The position numbers were made by a program, and so were the translations under genes. Below, piece after piece: positions 17,448 to 31,476 of a stretch of 45,175 bases of DNA. Origin of the DNA: Butyrivibrio sp. (GTDB taxonomy: Bacteria; Bacillota; Clostridia; Lachnospirales; Lachnospiraceae). Under the pieces are notes generated by a model. The model saw only the letters and a list, made by a program, of their open reading frames with translations, made no database searches and was not told the DNA's origin. The stretch spans positions 1-45,175 of the forward strand of contig JAFUYO010000003.1 in NCBI GenBank assembly GCA_017470505.1, read 5' to 3'. Every line of letters begins with the position of its first letter. Positions within the stretch are counted from its first letter, which is position 1.

Positions 17448-17852
17448 TCATTTCATGACAGGCAGGGGCGTATCGTAATCATAGTCTGCATGGCTTACGA
17501 CCTTCCACTTTGTGACTGTGCAGACCGTTTCACCTTCCGCGGAATGGCCGGAGGCGCCTGCAGTTATCGCTATATCCAGAGTCTGATTATCCGTAAAAGG
17601 AATGCTCTTTTCAATTATACCATCAGTTTCGCCCTCGGAGTAGCCTGAATTTACGGCTGCGACAAAGGCGTTCCCCTTGTGGCAGGCTTCGTAGTACATC
17701 AGCTGCCTCTTTGCGAGGTTCTCGCTCAGCCGGTAGTCAGCCGAAGCGCTTGACAGGGACAGGACGGCAAAAGAGACGAGGGAGAGGACGGTAAATATGA
17801 GCAGGATGGACGCACTTCCCACGTGCGAGATATGAAAATCGTTTTTATTCAT
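17448..17852 (-). CDS. Minor pseudopilin-like membrane-anchored protein
   Basis: This 134-aa protein has a short basic leader, one hydrophobic N-terminal helix (SASILLIFTVLSLVSFAVLS, about 13-32), and an extracellular-type C-terminal part. The junction HVG/SASIL resembles a prepilin peptidase site but lacks the Glu at position +5, as in PilX/GspK-like minor pilins. The globular part has a CHKGNAFVAAVNSGY helix and a CTVTKWKVV strand; its two cysteines could pair. It is the last gene of the six-gene operon and starts five bases after the preceding stop. The assignment rests on layout and context, not on a known family. Confidence 0.6.
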   Translation of the reverse strand: MNKNDFHISHVGSASILLIFTVLSLVSFAVLSLSSASADYRLSENLAKRQLMYYEACHKGNAFVAAVNSGYSEGETDGIIEKSIPFTDNQTLDIAITAGASGHSAEGETVCTVTKWKVVSHADYDYDTPLPVMK

Positions 17853-17857
17853 ATATC

Positions 17858-18415
17858 TTAATTGGCCTCCGTTCCTATATAAGTGTCGACGGTGTTCGAA
17901 AAGATTAATCTCTCATCGCCCTCTGAAATTTCCTGAAGGACTGAATCTGTGCCTTCGGTGTCCAAAACCTTTATGTCACAGACAGCCGCTTTCCCTGTAA
18001 GGGCTGTGCCATAGTCTGTCACATCGCTGTAAACATCGGAAGCGTCGAGTATCCTTGCCTTCAGGATGATCTCGTAGGATGCTGCAGAGGTTTCGGTATT
18101 TATCGTGTTCCACTCATCGTCAAAGATCAGGATAAAGGTATGTGAATCTTCTTCGGAATCAGATGGAGTCTCGGTTATAAAGGCATCCGGGAAGAGGCGG
18201 GAGAGACTGGAAAGATCCCCTTTTTCTCCTACGAATGCCTCGGATATGCTCTGGGCCCACTTGATGGCATTCCTGAGATCTTCCGTCTTTTTGGCAGCAA
18301 GATGCGCAGATGAAAAGAGACTGACACAGACTGCGGCAGACAGTGAGAAGAACATTATTGCAACTATGAGTTCCATGAGGAACAGACTCTGCTTTGAACT
18401 GTTCATATTGGACAT
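17858..18415 (-). CDS. Type IV pilin-like (prepilin N-terminal motif) protein
   Basis: This 185-aa protein starts with a short leader and LFLMELIVAIMFFSLSAAVC (about 11-30), a type IV pilin N-terminal helix with the conserved Glu at +5 if cleavage falls before LFLME. The residue before the cut would be Ser, not the usual Gly, so processing is uncertain. The rest is polar and acidic with many Ser/Asp, fitting an exposed pseudopilin head. It is one base after the DUF4860 gene. It is likely the most pilin-like subunit here and could be a GspI/J- or PilV/W-like minor pilin. Confidence 0.7.
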   Translation of the reverse strand: MSNMNSSKQSLFLMELIVAIMFFSLSAAVCVSLFSSAHLAAKKTEDLRNAIKWAQSISEAFVGEKGDLSSLSRLFPDAFITETPSDSEEDSHTFILIFDDEWNTINTETSAASYEIILKARILDASDVYSDVTDYGTALTGKAAVCDIKVLDTEGTDSVLQEISEGDERLIFSNTVDTYIGTEAN

Positions 18416-18416
18416 A

Positions 18417-18911
18417 TCAACCTGCTTTTTCGCTCCTTTTTGTCACGAACAGCCTCTCTTCATTGCCGTCCGGAAGAATAAATAATACATCAAACATATT
18501 GTCCGAAACCTTCTGGATATCGAAGGAGACAACGGGCGTTATCTTCTGCCCGGACCTTGGGTAAAACACTCCCATGTCATCTCTTGCATACAGCTCCATC
18601 AGGTTCCCGTCGAAGTCGTAGATGTAGGTCTTGTATGTGACGCCGTTAATATCCTCGGAGAACACAAGCGCATTCTCGCCAAAGATCCTCTCTACATCTA
18701 TTGCTCCGTTCTCATCTGCCTGCCTGACCTTCTCTGTGAGATATGCGCAGGCAATTCTGTGGGAGCTGTTCTCAGACATTTTTTCCACATTTTTTTTGTA
18801 AATGCTCGCTCCGATCGCTATGACGGAGAGCGCAGACAGCATAAAGAGCAGAAGCAGTGCTATCACGAACACGGCGTCTATTGTGTGAGAGCTTTTTTTA
18901 TCAAGTTCCAT
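18417..18911 (-). CDS. DUF4860 family protein
   Basis: This 164-aa protein matches DUF4860: a KSSHTIDAVFVIALLLLF start with a single membrane helix (about 11-35), then SHRIACAYLTEKVRQADENG, the segment I recall as typical of the family. The C-terminal part is a mixed beta domain (SFDIQKVSDNMFDVLFILPD). No function has been assigned that I know. DUF4860 genes recur beside GspF/PilC-like genes and pilin-like genes in Clostridia, as here, which suggests a part of the same pilus-like machine. It begins four bases after the upstream stop. Confidence 0.75.
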   Translation of the reverse strand: MELDKKSSHTIDAVFVIALLLLFMLSALSVIAIGASIYKKNVEKMSENSSHRIACAYLTEKVRQADENGAIDVERIFGENALVFSEDINGVTYKTYIYDFDGNLMELYARDDMGVFYPRSGQKITPVVSFDIQKVSDNMFDVLFILPDGNEERLFVTKRSEKAG

Positions 18912-18915
18912 AATC

Positions 18916-19251
18916 TTACCTCAGGATAACGGTGTAATCGGGATAAAGGTTCGCTGCCACGGGCTGGTAGTCCACGAAAAAGGTGCTCTTGTCGTAGGCA
19001 AGTCCGTAGTGGTCCTCCATGTACTCAAGGTTTGGCGGGTAGGCTCCCTCGATTGCGTAGCACTGAACAATATCCCTTGCAATGGCGCTCTCTAAGGACT
19101 GCTGCTGCTTCTCAATTGAGCTCTTTCCGGAGTAGTCGACTGCTGCGACAAAAATGATGGCTATGATAACAAAGATGACGGCGGAAACAGCTCTGTAAAA
19201 GCTCTCTGAGGGCCTGAAAAAATGATTGTCTGAATCAAATCTGTTTGCCAT
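18916..19251 (-). CDS. Small pseudopilin-like protein
   Basis: This 111-aa protein has a polar N-terminus of about 18 residues, one membrane helix (AVSAVIFVIIAIIFVAAVDY, about 21-40) and a C-terminal domain containing IARDIVQCYAIEGAYPPNL. The AIEGAYPP segment is like the one in many pseudopilin heads (length and position fit), but no prepilin cleavage motif is visible. It lies 13 bp after the GspF-like gene. I read it as an assembly component of the same machine; the family has no name that I can give. Confidence 0.6.
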   Translation of the reverse strand: MANRFDSDNHFFRPSESFYRAVSAVIFVIIAIIFVAAVDYSGKSSIEKQQQSLESAIARDIVQCYAIEGAYPPNLEYMEDHYGLAYDKSTFFVDYQPVAANLYPDYTVILR

Positions 19252-19264
19252 ATTAAAACCTCTT

Positions 19265-20320
19265 TTAACCGATGGATGTCATGATTCCCATGAGCGGAAG
19301 TATTACAGAGAGAAGTATCATACCGACTATGAGAGAGAGTATGATGACGAGCGTTGGCTCAAGGACCGAGATAAGTGCGTAGATCCTCTTGCGGGTGCCG
19401 GATTCTATCCTCTCTGAAACCTGCTTCATCGCCTGATCCATTGAACCTGAGCGAAATCCCACGGAGATCATCTGGGAGTAGAAGGATGAAAAGAGTCCTG
19501 ACTTCTGAAGTGCCTCAGGGAAGCTGTCGCCGTCAAGCAGAAGGTTCCTGCATTCTTCGATCTTTTCCTTCATCGCATCGTCTGACACAAGCTTTTTGAC
19601 CAGAGAGAGGCCCTCGTAGGTGTCCATGCCGCTCGATAAGGTGAGCACCATACCGCTTGCAAAGCGCTCTGTCTCGATGTCTGACATAAGCTTTTTGGTG
19701 GGACCAAATGCCTTTAGCAGTTTCCTGAAGTTCTCTCTGCCGCTGACTGCCTTGGTGAAGTAGAAAAAGCATGCCGCGAAAAGAACAAGTATCATCACCA
19801 TGACGATGGAGTAGCGGTTCAGCGCATTTCCGAGATTTAAAAGAGACTGCGCAAAGCCTGTCATACTGGTCCCGAGCTGTGCAAAGACCTGCTCGAAGAT
19901 GGGAAGGACCTTGGTTATGAGGACCAGCACAACAATCAGCATCATGAAGACCATGATGAGAGGGTAGCTGACAGCGCTCTTAATGCTGCTCTCTATGTTC
20001 TCCTCGCGGTCGTAGTAGTCAGCCAGTGACTCCATGACTACGTCCATATTTCCGGATTCCTCGCCTATATTGACCATGTGGACGACATACTCGGGGAAGA
20101 CCCCGCTCATTTCAAGGGCGACGTGGAATTTTTCACCGGAGTGAAGAACCTGCGCGAGAGAGGTGAGTATTTTTTGGGCGGACTTATCAGGGGTGTCCTC
20201 CAGGAGGATATCGACACCGTCCTGCGGCGCGATGCCCGCTCTCAAAAGAAGTGACATCTGCCTGCAGAAGCTCGATATCTCGCTGCTGTTCAGAGCTTTT
20301 GTTCCTGTAATCTTACTCAT
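19265..20320 (-). CDS. GspF/PilC inner-membrane platform protein
   Basis: This 351-aa protein is the platform protein of a type II secretion or type IV pilus system. It has the two repeated GspF domains: the first starts FCRQMSLLLRAGIAPQDGVD, the second FASGMVLTLSSGMDTYEGL. Three membrane helices are visible, about 117-140, 168-190 and the C-terminal one (LVIILSLIVGMILLSVILPL). Residues GEESGNMDVVMESLADYYD fit the family motif. In known systems it couples the ATPase to pilin extraction, yet no ATPase gene is seen in this window. It starts 13 bp after the transglutaminase gene and is in one operon with the four pilin-like genes. Confidence 0.9.
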   Translation of the reverse strand: MSKITGTKALNSSEISSFCRQMSLLLRAGIAPQDGVDILLEDTPDKSAQKILTSLAQVLHSGEKFHVALEMSGVFPEYVVHMVNIGEESGNMDVVMESLADYYDREENIESSIKSAVSYPLIMVFMMLIVVLVLITKVLPIFEQVFAQLGTSMTGFAQSLLNLGNALNRYSIVMVMILVLFAACFFYFTKAVSGRENFRKLLKAFGPTKKLMSDIETERFASGMVLTLSSGMDTYEGLSLVKKLVSDDAMKEKIEECRNLLLDGDSFPEALQKSGLFSSFYSQMISVGFRSGSMDQAMKQVSERIESGTRKRIYALISVLEPTLVIILSLIVGMILLSVILPLMGIMTSIG

Positions 20321-20333
20321 GGTGCCTCCAAGT

Positions 20334-21356
20334 TTAATAAATATATTTCACTGAATAGTTTGAGCCGTCGCCAATGAAGTCCTTTAATGACTTGTCTTTG
20401 GTGTTGGATGCAAAGGTTGGATCCATAAGCTCCCAGTCTGTTCCGTTGAACTCGATCATGCCGTTTACCCAGCCGATATCTTCTATATAAGTAGAGAGCC
20501 AGGCGTGGTAGACGCTTCCTGCGTAGCCGACCTCCATTCTGGTGGGGATCTTCTGGGAGCGCAGGATCGAAGTCATAAGCGCGGCATAGTCGAGGCAGAT
20601 ACCCTTTTTCGACTCAAGGACCTCATCGATGTCCGGAAGGTACCCGCTCTGAACTGTCTCGGCCTCATCGTAATCATAGGAGATATTGCCGATGATGTAG
20701 TTGTAAACCTCCGATACGACTTCGAGGTCAGAGTTGCATACATACGCAAGGTCGGCGCCTTTTTTGACGGCGCTGCTACTGCTCTCGAAATTCACGTACT
20801 GGTTGGGATATAGAAAAGGAGAGAACTCATTGGGCATCTTTACGGATATCTCCTGTGAGAATGCCTGCGAGTACTGTGTTCCCTCGATATTTTCAAAGAC
20901 GTTTATCATATACTCCCCGTCGCCTGACTGCAGGGGAAAGACCTCCTCGGTCGGAGCTGTGGTCGTCAGATTGTAGGTGTAGGTGATCTGCGTCGGTCCT
21001 GTGATCTGAAGCTTGACCTTTGGCGATGAGCCAAGATATGAGACAACAACGTAGCCCTCTGAACAGTTTGATGCGTCGAGCCTTGCGTACGCATTCTCAT
21101 AGACGGTTTCGCCGCTTGCAACCGGCACAAGACAAACAGGGGTGTTGTCGCGGCTTCCCTTTTCGCGCGGTGCCTCTTCTTTGGGAGAAGCACCTGCGCT
21201 TTCTCCTGATTGGGCTTGCTGTGAGGCGGAAGGAGAGGATACATCCGCTCCTGAAGAGGCACCTCCACATGCGCTCAGAGACAGGACCATGACCGCGATT
21301 GCTGTCAGCATTATCGTGTATGAAGTTTTATTTGTTTCTCGTTTATTTAACTTCAT
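20334..21356 (-). CDS. Transglutaminase-like lipoprotein
   Basis: This 340-aa protein has a signal peptide with a lipobox (VLSLSACGG, Cys30), so it is predicted to be anchored outside the membrane. A low-complexity Ser/Ala/Gln linker (31-70) precedes a beta-rich domain (about 75-190) and a C-terminal transglutaminase core. The catalytic triad is visible as Cys254 (KGICLDYAALM), His284 (YHAWLS) and Asp312 (WELMDPT). Proteins of this type act as cell-surface peptidases or cross-linkers. It heads the pseudopilin operon, 13 bp before the GspF-like gene, so a role in surface modification of the pilus or cell wall is a reasonable inference. Confidence 0.85.
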   Translation of the reverse strand: MKLNKRETNKTSYTIMLTAIAVMVLSLSACGGASSGADVSSPSASQQAQSGESAGASPKEEAPREKGSRDNTPVCLVPVASGETVYENAYARLDASNCSEGYVVVSYLGSSPKVKLQITGPTQITYTYNLTTTAPTEEVFPLQSGDGEYMINVFENIEGTQYSQAFSQEISVKMPNEFSPFLYPNQYVNFESSSSAVKKGADLAYVCNSDLEVVSEVYNYIIGNISYDYDEAETVQSGYLPDIDEVLESKKGICLDYAALMTSILRSQKIPTRMEVGYAGSVYHAWLSTYIEDIGWVNGMIEFNGTDWELMDPTFASNTKDKSLKDFIGDGSNYSVKYIY

Positions 21357-25938: not shown

Positions 25939-27363
25939 TCATTGTCTTTCCGCATGCATATTCTTCTTGTTTATATACATGTTATTGTCTGCACGTTTAA
26001 AGACATTTATTGCACCGGCATCTTTACTGCTGTCATATGTGGCATAGCCGATTGCAGCAGAAACAGCCTCCCAGGGAGGAAGCTCCTTGTTATTTGAAAG
26101 ATCCAGAAGCTGCTTGTTAAACTGATCTATCAGAGAATCAATATTTTCCAGATCATGACCTTTCAGGATTATTGCAAATTCGTCGCCGCCTATCCTGAAA
26201 ACAGGAGAGTGCGCAAATATAACACAGACTATCCTGCAGATGTTTTTGATGGCTTCGTTGCCCTTGTCGTGACCGTAAGTGTCATTGATGACCTTGAGGT
26301 AGTTTAGGTCAACGACTCCGATTCCAAATTCAGTTTTGCCCAGTTGGAGATTCCATTCAAGCGACTTGATCTCATTATCATACGCAGTTTTATTTCTTAT
26401 TCCGGTAAGTGAATCCCTGTTCGCAAGAGCCTCCAGCTGGGAGTTCTTATCCTGCATATCACTTAATTTCCTGTCTTTGTCGATGAGGTCCGAGGCGTAA
26501 TCCCGTATATCTTCGACCATTGATGAAATAGAGTCTGACAAAGATTCTATTTCATCGTGAGTATGTATGTTCAGGTCATCCATCACAAGCTCTGATACAG
26601 GAGCGCGTTTTCGGCATTTGTCCTCTATCATTCCGGTGGCATTTTCAAGGCTTTTGATAGGACGGACAATCCGCTTGTTATACCATTTGTTGAGCGCAAC
26701 GATTACCAGGAACCCTGCAATGAGGGCAACTATGACAGTTGCAGTTGCATAGGTATAGGCTGCCTTATAAATGTCATCAATAAGAATATCGCCACATATG
26801 ACTGCAACAGGTTCTCCTTTGCTGTTTATAAGAGGACGGATAGCAGTATATATTTTTCCAAAATCAGTATCATTTCTGAAGTAGGTGACAGTTGTATCCG
26901 TATCCATGCGGTTCATGTACTGAATGGCAACTTCCCGGGGATAGGCAACACCTGTGTAGTTTCCAAGATCCGTAAGTCCATCGGTTCCATCTGCTTTTCC
27001 CCATGAAGTATATGCAGCAAAGACATCCATCATGTTATCCGGAGGATCTGCCTTTAACGGTTCGATGATATATATATAATACAGGTCGTGGGTTTCTTTG
27101 AAATTATTGGCCAGTGTTTGGAGATTAAGGTATTTATCTGACTTGACACCGGTACGCATACATGCTTCAAGGTCGTCGACGTCTATGCACCTGCATAAAA
27201 AGTTGATGGAATCACCGGCGTAGTTCTGATAACGGCCTATCATATTTCTTCTATAGATGTTAAAACATAAAGCTCCCACAGAGACTGATATGAATACAAC
27301 AATTATGACGCTGATACGGATCAGCGATTTCTGAAGGGAGTTTTTCATTTTCTTATTGTTCAT
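25939..27363 (-). CDS. Membrane diguanylate cyclase (extracellular sensor, HAMP, GGDEF)
   Basis: This 474-aa protein has a membrane helix (about 14-34), an extracellular sensor region (35-205) of Cache-like size, a second helix (about 208-228), a HAMP-like linker (NKRIVRPIKSLENATG onward), a coiled coil (SDLIDKDRKLSDMQDKNSQL) and a GGDEF domain. The catalytic motif RIGGDEFA is intact (Gly392-Phe396), with the upstream RDSLTGIRNKTAYD and NDTYGHDKGN landmarks, so it should make cyclic di-GMP in response to an outside signal. No RxxD inhibitory site precedes the motif. It is transcribed alone, divergent from the GNAT gene and convergent with tpiA. Confidence 0.9.
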   Translation of the reverse strand: MNNKKMKNSLQKSLIRISVIIVVFISVSVGALCFNIYRRNMIGRYQNYAGDSINFLCRCIDVDDLEACMRTGVKSDKYLNLQTLANNFKETHDLYYIYIIEPLKADPPDNMMDVFAAYTSWGKADGTDGLTDLGNYTGVAYPREVAIQYMNRMDTDTTVTYFRNDTDFGKIYTAIRPLINSKGEPVAVICGDILIDDIYKAAYTYATATVIVALIAGFLVIVALNKWYNKRIVRPIKSLENATGMIEDKCRKRAPVSELVMDDLNIHTHDEIESLSDSISSMVEDIRDYASDLIDKDRKLSDMQDKNSQLEALANRDSLTGIRNKTAYDNEIKSLEWNLQLGKTEFGIGVVDLNYLKVINDTYGHDKGNEAIKNICRIVCVIFAHSPVFRIGGDEFAIILKGHDLENIDSLIDQFNKQLLDLSNNKELPPWEAVSAAIGYATYDSSKDAGAINVFKRADNNMYINKKNMHAERQ

Positions 27364-27642
27364 GTCTGTGCCTCCGTATATGTTAATTCAGAAGGTGGAA
27401 CCTACTTTGAAAAATGTTGAAATACCGTTTCATTTTAATTGTAACTTGAATCATGCCGTGACTCAACTAAAAGCTATATAAACGACTGCTTTTTGTGATC
27501 GTAACCAATGCAGGTCTCCTTATTAGTTCAAATAAGCAGATGGTTGCTGACAACAAAAGTGAAAAGAGAGATAATATAGAAAAAGAAAAAACTCCCTGCA
27601 AAGCTGCAAGGGGCTTTTGAAGTAATATAAACAGGAGATCGA

Positions 27643-28446
27643 ATGAGACTTTTTTCCATAAAAAATGGACAGGCCAAAGAGGCGAAATCGCTGTTGTTGC
27701 CGGATACGGTAAAGGCGATAGAGAAGGGCCTCCCGGTCACTGCCATCATAGCGGAGGAAGATGAGAGGGCTGTTGGAGCTGCAGCCGGAATTGCGGACGG
27801 CGATGTGTTCAGGCTGCTGAGCATATATGTGGAGCCGGAATACAGGAAAAGGGGCATAGGAAGAGCTCTTTTGGAGAAGCTTGAAGAGATCGTGGCCGTC
27901 ACAGGGCGTCTTATAAGAGCTGAGTACACCGCGGCAGGCGAGGATCTTGAGGCTCTTGCACCCTTCTTTTTGCACCTTGGATACAGGGATGATGCGCAGA
28001 ACAGACCGGGATACTACATCGGAAAGATAGGCAATCTGACAGAGGATGAGACAATTCCGGATCTTCCGGAAAACTTCTCCTTATCATTTCTTGATGATAT
28101 TGGGGAGAAGACTCTTTCAGATTTTCAAAAAACAACGGAGATCGACTTTACGGCAGGTACAGTCCTTAAGGATGTGAGCTGCGCTGTTCTGATGGAAGGC
28201 ACAATTAAGGCGTATATTGTTGTCGAAAGAGTGGAAAAAAAGATTCTCAAGGTGGAGGAAATCGATTCGGAAATATCTGACCACAGGATGCTGTCAGCCT
28301 TAGTTCTCAAAACATGCAGGAAGCTAAAGAAGAAGTTTGACCCGGAAGTAAAGCTGGTGGTGCTGGTACTTGGTGATAAGCCGTCAAGGACGCTCAGGTC
28401 GGTGATGGGCGATGCCGCTTCTTGTTCCTATTCATTTATCAAGTGA
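27643..28446 (+). CDS. GNAT-family acetyltransferase with unknown C-terminal domain
   Basis: This 267-aa protein has an N-terminal GNAT fold. The acetyl-CoA loop is YVEPEYRKRGIGRALLEKLE (about 64-83), including the R-x-x-G-x-G/A pattern, and the following strand-helix region is present. The C-terminal 130 residues (from about 135) seem to be a second, degenerate GNAT-like half: SFLDDIGEKTLSDFQ and MLSALVLKTCRKLKKKF. The substrate is not evident. An AGGAG site fixes the start. The kinase-like gene begins 78 bp after the stop on the same strand, with a hairpin but no T-run between, so the two may share a transcript. Confidence 0.8.
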   Translation: MRLFSIKNGQAKEAKSLLLPDTVKAIEKGLPVTAIIAEEDERAVGAAAGIADGDVFRLLSIYVEPEYRKRGIGRALLEKLEEIVAVTGRLIRAEYTAAGEDLEALAPFFLHLGYRDDAQNRPGYYIGKIGNLTEDETIPDLPENFSLSFLDDIGEKTLSDFQKTTEIDFTAGTVLKDVSCAVLMEGTIKAYIVVERVEKKILKVEEIDSEISDHRMLSALVLKTCRKLKKKFDPEVKLVVLVLGDKPSRTLRSVMGDAASCSYSFIK

Positions 28447-28524: not shown

Positions 28525-31476
28525 ATGGAAGGCATGGGTGAAGTAAAGAAACAGATTAATAAACCGTTGCAGGAGATTCAGGTTACCTCAGAAAAAAATA
28601 AAGAGGACTCTGTCTATGACCTGAATAAATCAGAGCTTATTCAGCCTGAGGAGCAAATAAACTTCGAAAAGGAAAAGGACTCAGCCCTTGATATCATGGT
28701 CAAAAACTCCATGGATGCAAATCTGCAGCTTAAGGAGAGACAGAGCGTTCTTTTGACGGTTGAGGATAAGTGGAAGGCCTATGATGAGTACAGAAAGCTC
28801 CCGGTACAGAAAATTCCTGAGGCAAGGAGTACCCAAAAGGCCCGTAAAACCGAGGCTGGTGCCCTGAAGAAAGCACAAAAGACATTTTCCTTTGCGGATA
28901 CATGTACAGTCAGGGAGATGGACAATCTAAAGGCCCATATTAAGTTTTTGCAGGATGGGAAAAAATCTGAAATAACAGGGCAGGATGGCGCTGACAATGA
29001 GAGCCTTCTCTCTTTTGTTTCTGACATTGTCTCTCTCGATATGTCGGAGAAGTATCTGACAGATGACTATCTCTCGGACCACATCGGAGAGATGCTTGAG
29101 TATTGCAAAAAGCTTGAAATGTTTGGAGAGCTGAGAGACAAGTACCCGAAGTTTTTTTCTTCCATCCCGGACAGCCACCTGATGATACTTGAAGAGCGCT
29201 CTGACATGGCAAAAGACCTGAAAGGACTCCTTAATTCTCACCTTGAGCTTCACGGTATAAATGTGGAATATCAGGACGGGGATCCCGGCGCTGTGACCCT
29301 CAAAGAGGTTAAGGGCAAAAGCGCACAGGAGCGCAGTCAGAATGAAGAAAACCATGAAAAGGCAAAAGACGCCTACGATAAGCAGTGGAAGGAATTCTAT
29401 GTAAAGAACATTGAAGAGGCAGGACTTAACAATGCGGCCAGATATACCAGGGGGAAGGCCTATTCCTCCGAGGTGGCTGCTCCAAGGCTTTTTGCAAGAA
29501 TATCGCAGCTCAATAAAGATGTGCCCTGGGTAAAAGAATCCATAGATGCTGCAAAGGAGGAGATTACCAGGTCGTTCCAGAAGAGGGATGAACTGATAAC
29601 AGCGCTTAAAGATAATCTGAAAAAGTACGGGGAGTGTAAAACGGCGGAAGAGGTAAGCGCGCGGATTCATATGATAGTTGATTTAAATGCCAGAATCCGC
29701 AAGATCACGACGGATGCCGATAAGCTCATCGATTCGCTTAACATACAGGAAGAGCTTAAAGTAAATGAGACCACCAGGGATGCGGTCAAAGCCATGGAAG
29801 ACAGAAAGGAAGATGGCGGTAATGATTCGGCTTCGATGAAGGAGTTTTCGGCTGCCATGAATGCGATCTACAACTTCCTCGGACAGAAGATGCCGCCGCT
29901 TAGTTTTGATGATGAGGCAATTGATGCCGGCTGCCTTCTGGCTGTTAATATCTACAACAGGGCAGAGAAGAGTATTGATAAGTGCCTTAACAAACCGGAA
30001 AATTACAACAATTCCGAGGAGATAAAAAAACAGCTGCAGGATGCGAGAGAGCTCTGCAAAAAGGAGAGGAGTCTTTTCAGGCAAAATGTATTTGAGCTGC
30101 GAGACCTGATAAAAACGCAGCAGTTAAAGCTCGCAAAGCCGCTTACCTGGGCTGATGCCTTAAAGTATCAGCGCAGCGTTAAGCTCAATGTCAATGGGGA
30201 AGACGGCGTTAATATGAAGAAAATCGGCGCGGGTTCTTCGACCATTTACAAGTTTGACTACGAAGGCAAAAGTGTCTTTTTCCGCAAAGGAGAAGTGGTT
30301 CCACCGAAGGATAACCAGGAGTTTGTAAAATATTTTCTGGACAAGACAATGGCTGAAGGCAGCTTCATGGAAAGAACTCTTCGCCCGATATTTGAGATCT
30401 TTGGCAAAGAGAAAACAATAAACGGTAAGACTATGACAGATTTCTTTAAACCGATGAGAAGAAACAGCAGTGAGGAGATATTTGATGCAGTCTTAAAATC
30501 TGATTCAAAGGCAAAAGAGTTTCTTAAAAATATAAAGGACAAGGATGAAATAAAGAAGGTCGGCTCATACCTTACGGAATTTGCAAGATCTGTTTTTCAG
30601 CGTGATTTTTGCAAGGGAGCACATATTGGTTATGGAAAGCCCTTGTCCGAGAGGAACGTTGCTACCAGCAGAATGGCCCTCATTCTGGGTATCCCGGGCA
30701 TGATAGCGGAATCGAGGACGGCTCTTATGCGTGATGGTGACAAGGTGGAGATGGGCAACCTCATGGAGGACACAAAGGGCGAAGAGGTAACTGAGCTGGT
30801 AAAAGAGGCCAGGAAAAACGACGGAAAGGTAAGCTATAGCGACGAAGCCATAAGTCAGTTATACACCATTCAGATATTTGATCTTTTGTGTCAGCAGATG
30901 GACAGGCATTTTGGAAACTATCACGCGATAACAGAGAGAAAAAACGGCCAGATCATCGTGAAGAAAATCAAGGGAATTGACAATGATATTGCCTTTGGAA
31001 CCATTAAATATGAGCGTCTAAAAAATGGGCTTAACAGAATCAGGCCGATCACAAATGAAAACATCAAGGGAATGCCCATTGCTTTTTTAAATGCTGTCAT
31101 GAATCTAAATGATGATGTAGCGGCAAACTCTCTCTGTGACATTCTCGACGCCAAAGAGATAAAAGCGTTCAAGGAACGCCTGAATGGTCTGAGGAATGAC
31201 ATAAAAAACGCTATGGGCGATATAGGACTTAAGAGGGATGTGACAGGTTCTGCGGATGGCTTTGCCGGACGCTACTACTACGAAGGAGAAGAGCAGGACG
31301 ACACCTTAAGGCAGCTTTTGCAGCTCAAAAAGCAATATGAAATACTTGATTCAAGTCCCAATCAGCAGCTTTTGGGAGATGTTTCGGTATTTCATGAGGG
31401 CGTGATCGGTCAGGGAGAGATAAAAAGAAGGATCAAAGAGAGGAGGGAGCAGCTGAAACAACAGAATCAAAACTGA
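28525..31476 (+). CDS. Large protein with atypical kinase-like C-terminal domain
   Basis: I do not recognise a named family for this 983-aa protein. Residues 1-550 are hydrophilic, highly charged and mainly helical (coiled-coil-like), without signal peptide or membrane helix. From about 553 there are kinase-fold hallmarks. KKIGAGSSTIYKF (565-577) resembles a Gly-rich ATP loop, followed by SVFFRKGE with Lys588 as a candidate ATP lysine. MDRHFGNYH has Asp793-Arg794-His795 and Asn798, like the catalytic D-x-x-x-x-N of HipA, Fam20C and PI-kinase-like folds. KGIDNDIAFG (816-825) resembles the metal-binding DFG equivalent. The end (about 930-983) is a charged helix. AGGAGG lies eight bases upstream. 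Function, substrate and partner are unknown; the kinase reading is inference from motifs. Confidence 0.6.
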   Translation: MEGMGEVKKQINKPLQEIQVTSEKNKEDSVYDLNKSELIQPEEQINFEKEKDSALDIMVKNSMDANLQLKERQSVLLTVEDKWKAYDEYRKLPVQKIPEARSTQKARKTEAGALKKAQKTFSFADTCTVREMDNLKAHIKFLQDGKKSEITGQDGADNESLLSFVSDIVSLDMSEKYLTDDYLSDHIGEMLEYCKKLEMFGELRDKYPKFFSSIPDSHLMILEERSDMAKDLKGLLNSHLELHGINVEYQDGDPGAVTLKEVKGKSAQERSQNEENHEKAKDAYDKQWKEFYVKNIEEAGLNNAARYTRGKAYSSEVAAPRLFARISQLNKDVPWVKESIDAAKEEITRSFQKRDELITALKDNLKKYGECKTAEEVSARIHMIVDLNARIRKITTDADKLIDSLNIQEELKVNETTRDAVKAMEDRKEDGGNDSASMKEFSAAMNAIYNFLGQKMPPLSFDDEAIDAGCLLAVNIYNRAEKSIDKCLNKPENYNNSEEIKKQLQDARELCKKERSLFRQNVFELRDLIKTQQLKLAKPLTWADALKYQRSVKLNVNGEDGVNMKKIGAGSSTIYKFDYEGKSVFFRKGEVVPPKDNQEFVKYFLDKTMAEGSFMERTLRPIFEIFGKEKTINGKTMTDFFKPMRRNSSEEIFDAVLKSDSKAKEFLKNIKDKDEIKKVGSYLTEFARSVFQRDFCKGAHIGYGKPLSERNVATSRMALILGIPGMIAESRTALMRDGDKVEMGNLMEDTKGEEVTELVKEARKNDGKVSYSDEAISQLYTIQIFDLLCQQMDRHFGNYHAITERKNGQIIVKKIKGIDNDIAFGTIKYERLKNGLNRIRPITNENIKGMPIAFLNAVMNLNDDVAANSLCDILDAKEIKAFKERLNGLRNDIKNAMGDIGLKRDVTGSADGFAGRYYYEGEEQDDTLRQLLQLKKQYEILDSSPNQQLLGDVSVFHEGVIGQGEIKRRIKERREQLKQQNQN

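Follow-up and report, generated by a model that had tools for sequence, protein, structure and literature searches.

The window analysed here is a 45,175-nt stretch of Butyrivibrio sp. DNA (GenBank assembly GCA_017470505.1, contig JAFUYO010000003.1, positions 1 to 45,175, forward strand). Within it, an open reading frame (ORF) at 28525-31476 (+) starts with ATG, 8 nt downstream of an AGGAGG, and encodes a 983-residue protein whose C-terminal half a preliminary description had read as an atypical kinase. We propose that this protein is an effector-type kinase, probably cargo of the cell's contractile injection system (CIS). The gene, its upstream GNAT acetyltransferase-like neighbour and their features are as follows.

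27547..27575 (+): promoter-like site 5' of the GNAT gene (10/12 matches; 13 such sites found in the region against 10.8 expected, which is near chance)
27633..27637 (+): AGGAG ribosome-binding site of the GNAT gene
27643..28446 (+): partner gene, tandem GNAT acetyltransferase-like protein, 267 residues
28511..28516 (+): AGGAGG ribosome-binding site of the kinase gene
28525..31476 (+): kinase-family effector-like protein, 983 residues
28525..29793 (+): residues 1-423, N-terminal part that varies within the family and has no recognised domain (nothing over cut-off in Pfam or NCBIfam)
29794..30156 (+): residues 424-544, helical module common to kinase and non-kinase relatives (iterated hidden Markov model (HMM), E 6e-21)
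30145..31209 (+): residues 541-895, kinase domain (family HMM; AlphaFold2 model of residues 516-935)
30223..30249 (+): IGAGSSTIY, Gly-rich loop (567-575)
30283..30288 (+): R587-K588, ATP-lysine region, 587 being the conserved basic column
30652..30672 (+): RNVATSR, family signature (710-716; R710 in 51/51 domains, the motif having been used in the scan patterns)
30901..30918 (+): DRHFGN, catalytic loop (793-798; D793, R794 and N798 in 51/51)
30973..30999 (+): GIDNDIAFG, metal-binding loop (817-825; D819 in 50/51, G825 in 51/51)

The motifs lie where the preliminary description had placed them, and the D-x-x-x-x-N and GIDND elements on which it staked its kinase assignment are conserved in homologues. 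We aligned 51 domains, comprising that of the window protein and 50 from genomes found by DNA patterns that contained neither the DRHFGN nor the GIDND motif. In addition to the near-invariant catalytic and metal-binding residues listed above, N820 and D821 are each kept in 48 of these domains, S572 in 47 and G568 in 42. Because strong, near-complete matches were chosen, degenerate members are under-represented in this alignment; the D-N-D triad is kept in 103 of 116 domains that cover the sites, and the 13 without it include fragments. The candidate lysine, K588, stands only in part. A basic pair is present, but the conserved basic column is 587 (K in 33 and R in 14 of the 51), where the window protein has Arg with Lys588 beside it; column 588 itself holds Lys in 22/51 and Glu in 11/51.

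The AlphaFold2 model of residues 516-935, searched with Foldseek, shows a two-lobed kinase fold (TM-scores of 0.33-0.41 on the query for PI4K II), and the catalytic Asp and metal-binding Asn and Asp that mark the PI4K-II/Fam20/HipA group are in place. The structural check that had been suggested for a kinase-like catalytic region came out in its favour. A 14-row family profile matches PI4K type II and Fam20C at E about 1e-3, whereas the 51-row profile gave weaker PDB matches (Fam20C, E 0.0086). Searched on its own, the window protein reaches Fam20C in Pfam (E 0.026) and TIGR03843 in NCBIfam (E 0.001), both under cut-off, and in the PDB finds only Lpp (E 0.7-0.8). Together, sequence and model give good support to a predicted, apparently competent atypical kinase domain of the PI4K-II/CtkA/Fam20/HipA fold group. 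Because the Pfam and NCBIfam matches fall below cut-off and PADLOC gives none, the earlier statement that the protein belongs to no named family holds for these libraries. The further claim that the first 550 residues contain no known domain is right for residues 1-423 and needs amending for residues 424-544, which form a helical module common in the family.

Known kinases of this fold differ from the window protein in several respects. CtkA of Helicobacter pylori, of solved structure (3akk), has about 300 residues and, to our knowledge, neither a helical module nor a GNAT partner. PI4K type II and Fam20C are eukaryotic, and their likeness to the window domain is seen at the profile level only. 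The HipA/HipT kinases have a different N-terminal half, and the window domain has no HipA_C match.

The kinase family is Clostridial, patchy and multicopy, with members of up to 3483 residues. A search of genome contigs with the single window protein gave no match, and among 41 relatives such a search found the kinase in 9, all of one genus. Profile searches found it in 21 of 397 genomes of the host's taxonomic family (E<=1e-9) and in 20 of 392 genomes of the host order (E<=1e-10), in five families; matches above E 1e-9 (33/54 genomes), mostly short stretches at the catalytic loop, were excluded from the family. The 46 named loci include Butyrivibrio strains (Su6, AE2015 and FCS014) and metagenome-assembled genomes (MAGs), other Lachnospiraceae MAGs, Oscillibacter valericigenes and [Clostridium] asparagiforme. 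The 131 kinase genes were reduced to 116 at 85% identity, the background genes not being de-duplicated. A tree of 102 leaves was built from the 116, with one best domain each and a minimum of 200 aligned columns. Besides the window gene, the host genome (G000, 84% complete) holds five more matches at four places: 72-74 kb (two matches, one interrupted gene), 41 kb and 37-38 kb on contig C52, and 275 kb on contig C39. A paralogue on C52 (L024 8026-13275) is broken by an in-frame stop and has an uninterrupted relative at L028 8734-13125. Short pseudokinase members at L026 8181-9743, L034 2382-3854 and L037 5897-7318, which count among the 13 domains without the triad, have lost the Asp/Asn residues and have no Gly-rich loop aligned. 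Each directly adjoins a winged-helix AAA ATPase gene, and perhaps they are adaptors derived from effectors.

The helical module is present in 104 of the 131 kinase genes; outside the kinases, 18 entries match it at E<1e-3, one a duplicate. Among its non-kinase bearers are an ABC1-kinase protein and a 942-residue calpain-family protease protein (E 3e-21), next to tandem GNATs. GNAT-adjacent non-kinase proteins of at least 350 residues carry it in 9 of 39 cases versus 5 of 301 for proteins adjoining neither a GNAT nor a kinase gene. In control searches of 1163 genes the module profile found nothing in shuffled sequences and 4 weak matches (best E 0.005) in reversed ones; because the profile was iterated, its later E-values are inflated. 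Since the module is common to kinase, ABC1 and calpain proteins, the kinase seems to be one among several payloads carried by a single chassis. The family is one of large modular proteins with a variable N-terminal part, a common helical module and an exchangeable C-terminal enzyme, here a kinase.

In one branch of the family, many members adjoin either a tandem-GNAT gene, as in the window, or a winged-helix AAA+ ATPase gene, which in the two tested has a winged-helix N-terminus (PF22977) and a C-terminal AAA domain. Such a neighbour is found for 14 of 21 kinase genes in those host-family genomes that have a contractile tube gene (tube-positive), versus 0 of 20 in tube-negative ones. Because the initial GNAT profile came from neighbours of kinase genes, GNAT adjacency was counted separately on other loci. 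The GNAT gene of the window precedes the kinase gene, as had been noted, on the same strand and across a 78-nt gap, and its product has two GNAT folds in one chain. The only terminator-like sites on the + strand between the two genes are two weak 5-pair hairpins at 28400-28420, where the GNAT ORF is still running to its end.

Several other proteins lie in such neighbourhoods. In the host genome (C39, L157 1019-6469), a 1816-residue protein near a tandem GNAT has no Pfam match over cut-off and contains two copies of a Cys/His segment resembling papain/C39-type proteases. A protein of 173-183 residues, possibly a chaperone-like partner, recurs near tandem GNATs and large proteins (L159 8350-8901, L160 8565-9107, L024 3995-4516); the one tested had no Pfam match. 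Arrays of three and two kinase-family genes stand between two AAA genes in L144 (a Clostridia MAG) and L146 (O. valericigenes), respectively; a large protein of L144 contains, in addition, a stretch resembling a PPPDE peptidase that falls just short of the cut-off.

The link to contractile injection is seen at several levels. A contractile tube gene is present in 10/10 genomes with GNAT- or AAA-linked kinases, which were picked for such members, versus 0/14 control genomes. Of the 41 relatives, 10 have a tube of the extracellular CIS (eCIS) type, 9 the kinase and 8 both (Fisher 4e-6; same genus only, 7e-5). Across the 397 host-family genomes, 21 have the kinase, 43 a tube and 10 both (p 1e-5), relatedness being ignored in all these counts; besides the host genome itself, the nine joint genomes span eight genera. 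A "long tube" class (p 7e-9) was defined after the data were seen. The host genome is itself an eCIS genome: its cluster on contig C39 (C39:68726) has tube, sheath, DUF4280/PAAR-like, gp25 and Baseplate_J genes, with STAS (E 6e-18) and SpoIIE (E 3e-75) genes at its ends, and such genes also lie near some kinases. Searched with the sheath of a relative, G006, the solved sheaths gave matches led by 9ezm (E 2e-108), then Pvc2 (3e-47), Afp3 (5e-47), 7b5h (3e-45) and 7adz (2e-43), 7adz being AlgoCIS and 7b5h the cyanobacterial tCIS. Two family kinases, in L146 and L144, carry an N-terminal eCIS core domain (E 1e-20 and 9e-21).

A second branch of the family goes with type IV secretion systems (T4SS). 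The T4SS pilin PF18895 is over cut-off in 10 of 11 tube-negative kinase genomes versus 2 of 10 tube-positive ones, rates that cover kinase genomes only, and no sheath match was found in the 11. VirB4 and pilin genes lie upstream of the kinase in three loci (L083/G151, L148 and L149), and the G151 cluster also contains a VirD4-type gene. All 17 tree leaves whose genomes have the pilin and no tube fall, together with L148 and L149, in one clade of 22 (support 0.983), which excludes all 35 leaves from tube-positive genomes. Both kinases of G018, the one genome of the host's genus with the kinase and no tube, belong to this clade. The kinase family is thus cleanly split by machine, and is most simply read as a family of effectors that track the machine delivering them.

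As to activity, substrate, loading, delivery, target cell and the role of the GNAT protein, we infer the following course. The protein would be made in the cytosol along with its tandem-GNAT partner and loaded into the cell's eCIS-type machine, helped by a Pvc15-type AAA+ ATPase, to be injected into a neighbouring cell. There, ATP would be bound between the Gly-rich loop and the basic 587/588 pair, D793 would act as the base and N798 and D819 would hold the metal, so that a protein or lipid is phosphorylated. The sister branch would be carried by the T4SS.

This proposal can be set beside described systems. Pvc15 of the Photorhabdus PVC, an ATPase that loads the effectors of eCIS, combines an N domain with tandem AAA domains (PMC11495950); the AAA gene beside some family members, which lies outside the window, is likened to it by domain layout only. 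According to PMC8213781, eCIS toxins with the DUF4157/eCIS core domain, which is located at their N-terminus, are likewise large, often with long linkers and a C-terminal enzyme, and belong to eCIS genomes; the window protein differs from them in lacking the core domain, in lying outside the CIS operon, and in its kinase payload and tandem-GNAT neighbour. In the passages covered, "kinase" denotes regulators in PMC8213781 and occurs in a cited title in PMC11297309, and the one Clostridial toxin tested in PMC8213781 is EAT12 of Ruminiclostridium cellulolyticum. Our literature search found no paper pairing contractile injection systems with Butyrivibrio, and with Lachnospir* only a reference-list entry.

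Little seems to have been published on the cargo of Clostridial contractile injection systems. The present data offer testable candidates: a kinase payload whose active site is conserved, further candidate cargo genes flagged by a neighbouring GNAT gene, and a sister branch located in T4SS operons. More tentatively, gut and rumen Clostridia may possess an undescribed modular effector arsenal in which a helical module carries interchangeable enzymes, many with a tandem-GNAT helper, and whose kinase family was adopted by two unrelated machines, CIS and T4SS. Those enzymes would include a PI4K-like kinase, an ABC1-like kinase and a calpain-like protease, and perhaps membrane-inserting domains. 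The effector kinases MavQ and LepB and the tandem-GNAT effector VipF are T4SS effectors of the Gram-negative pathogen Legionella. Their likeness to the window pair is seen at the level of fold and is suggestive only; because of these parallels, ciliates or other gut eukaryotes could be the natural targets. If the proposal is true, one may ask what it is that common rumen bacteria are injecting, and who receives it.

Several observations weigh against CIS cargo. The host genome has its only tube and sheath matches on C39, whereas the window is C41, which leaves the two without an operon link, and domain search found no eCIS core domain in the window protein; the cargo status of this protein is for these reasons drawn from its family. 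No common N-terminal loading signal was evident by eye among 74 GNAT/AAA-linked and 48 unlinked N-termini, a comparison that included no formal motif search. Co-occurrence is incomplete, with G002 and G040 having a tube without the kinase and G018 the reverse, and with 11 of 21 kinase genomes lacking a tube and 33 of 43 tube genomes lacking the kinase at host-family level; shared ancestry is left out of the p-values. Two tube-positive kinase genomes, G371 and G382, also have the PF18895 pilin. The Foldseek scores are modest, and AAA-adjacent members are partly degenerate (L026, L034, L037 and L074). Because 7 of the 21 tube-positive kinase genes have no adjacent GNAT or AAA gene, we slightly lowered our confidence in the cargo proposal and raised that in its main rival.

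That rival, which we consider unlikely but serious, is an intracellular regulatory kinase that stays in the producer and controls assembly or firing of the machine, opposed by neighbouring SpoIIE-type phosphatases, on the model of the PpkA/PppA pair of the type VI secretion system. SpoIIE phosphatases, RsbW-like ATPases and STAS proteins near several members and beside the host's own CIS cluster fit such a signalling role too, as do the cyclic nucleotide (cNMP)-binding SpoIIE and adenylate cyclase near L079, the FecR near L083 and the pseudokinases adjoining AAA genes. However, SpoIIE, RsbW, STAS and winged-helix AAA profiles match nothing anywhere in the window, and a regulator is hard to square with five strongly diverged members in one genome, sizes up to 3483 residues, calpain or ABC1 domains in place of the kinase in proteins sharing the module or GNAT neighbour, or an eCIS core domain fused to family kinases. 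We regard as very improbable a HipA-like growth-arrest toxin that acts on the producer and is neutralised by the GNAT partner or another neighbour: PI4K II, CtkA and Fam20 match better, HipA_C is matched by 1 of 14 members (E 0.017) and not by the window domain, the gene is flanked directly by the GNAT gene and by what reads as an alcohol dehydrogenase gene, and none of the 20 kinase genes in tube-negative host-family genomes has a GNAT or AAA neighbour. Most remote is a role in anti-phage defence, with the acetyltransferase and AAA ATPase as accessories of the kinase. The patchy, multicopy family and the resemblance of the linked AAA domain to IteA, an ATPase of anti-phage defence (E 2e-35; 123 bits, the cut-off being 510), would suit it, but the window protein matches 0 PADLOC families and the association is with CIS tube genes.

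Three loci, L079, L083 and L096, share a neighbourhood in which a kinase-family gene lies near a SpoIIE phosphatase gene (cNMP-binding in L079) and a metallo-beta-lactamase-like gene, with a CHASE2-adenylate cyclase in L079 and FecR in L083; it is possibly a cAMP-controlled phosphatase circuit. Elsewhere in the window, a membrane sensor at 25939-27363 (-), with a GGDEF-like C-terminus by reading, is divergent from the GNAT-kinase pair. A small operon at 17448-21356 (-) combines, again by reading, a GspF/PilC-like gene with short genes for pilin-like proteins of one helix, and has an orthologous block in G006 (L029 2605-6483).
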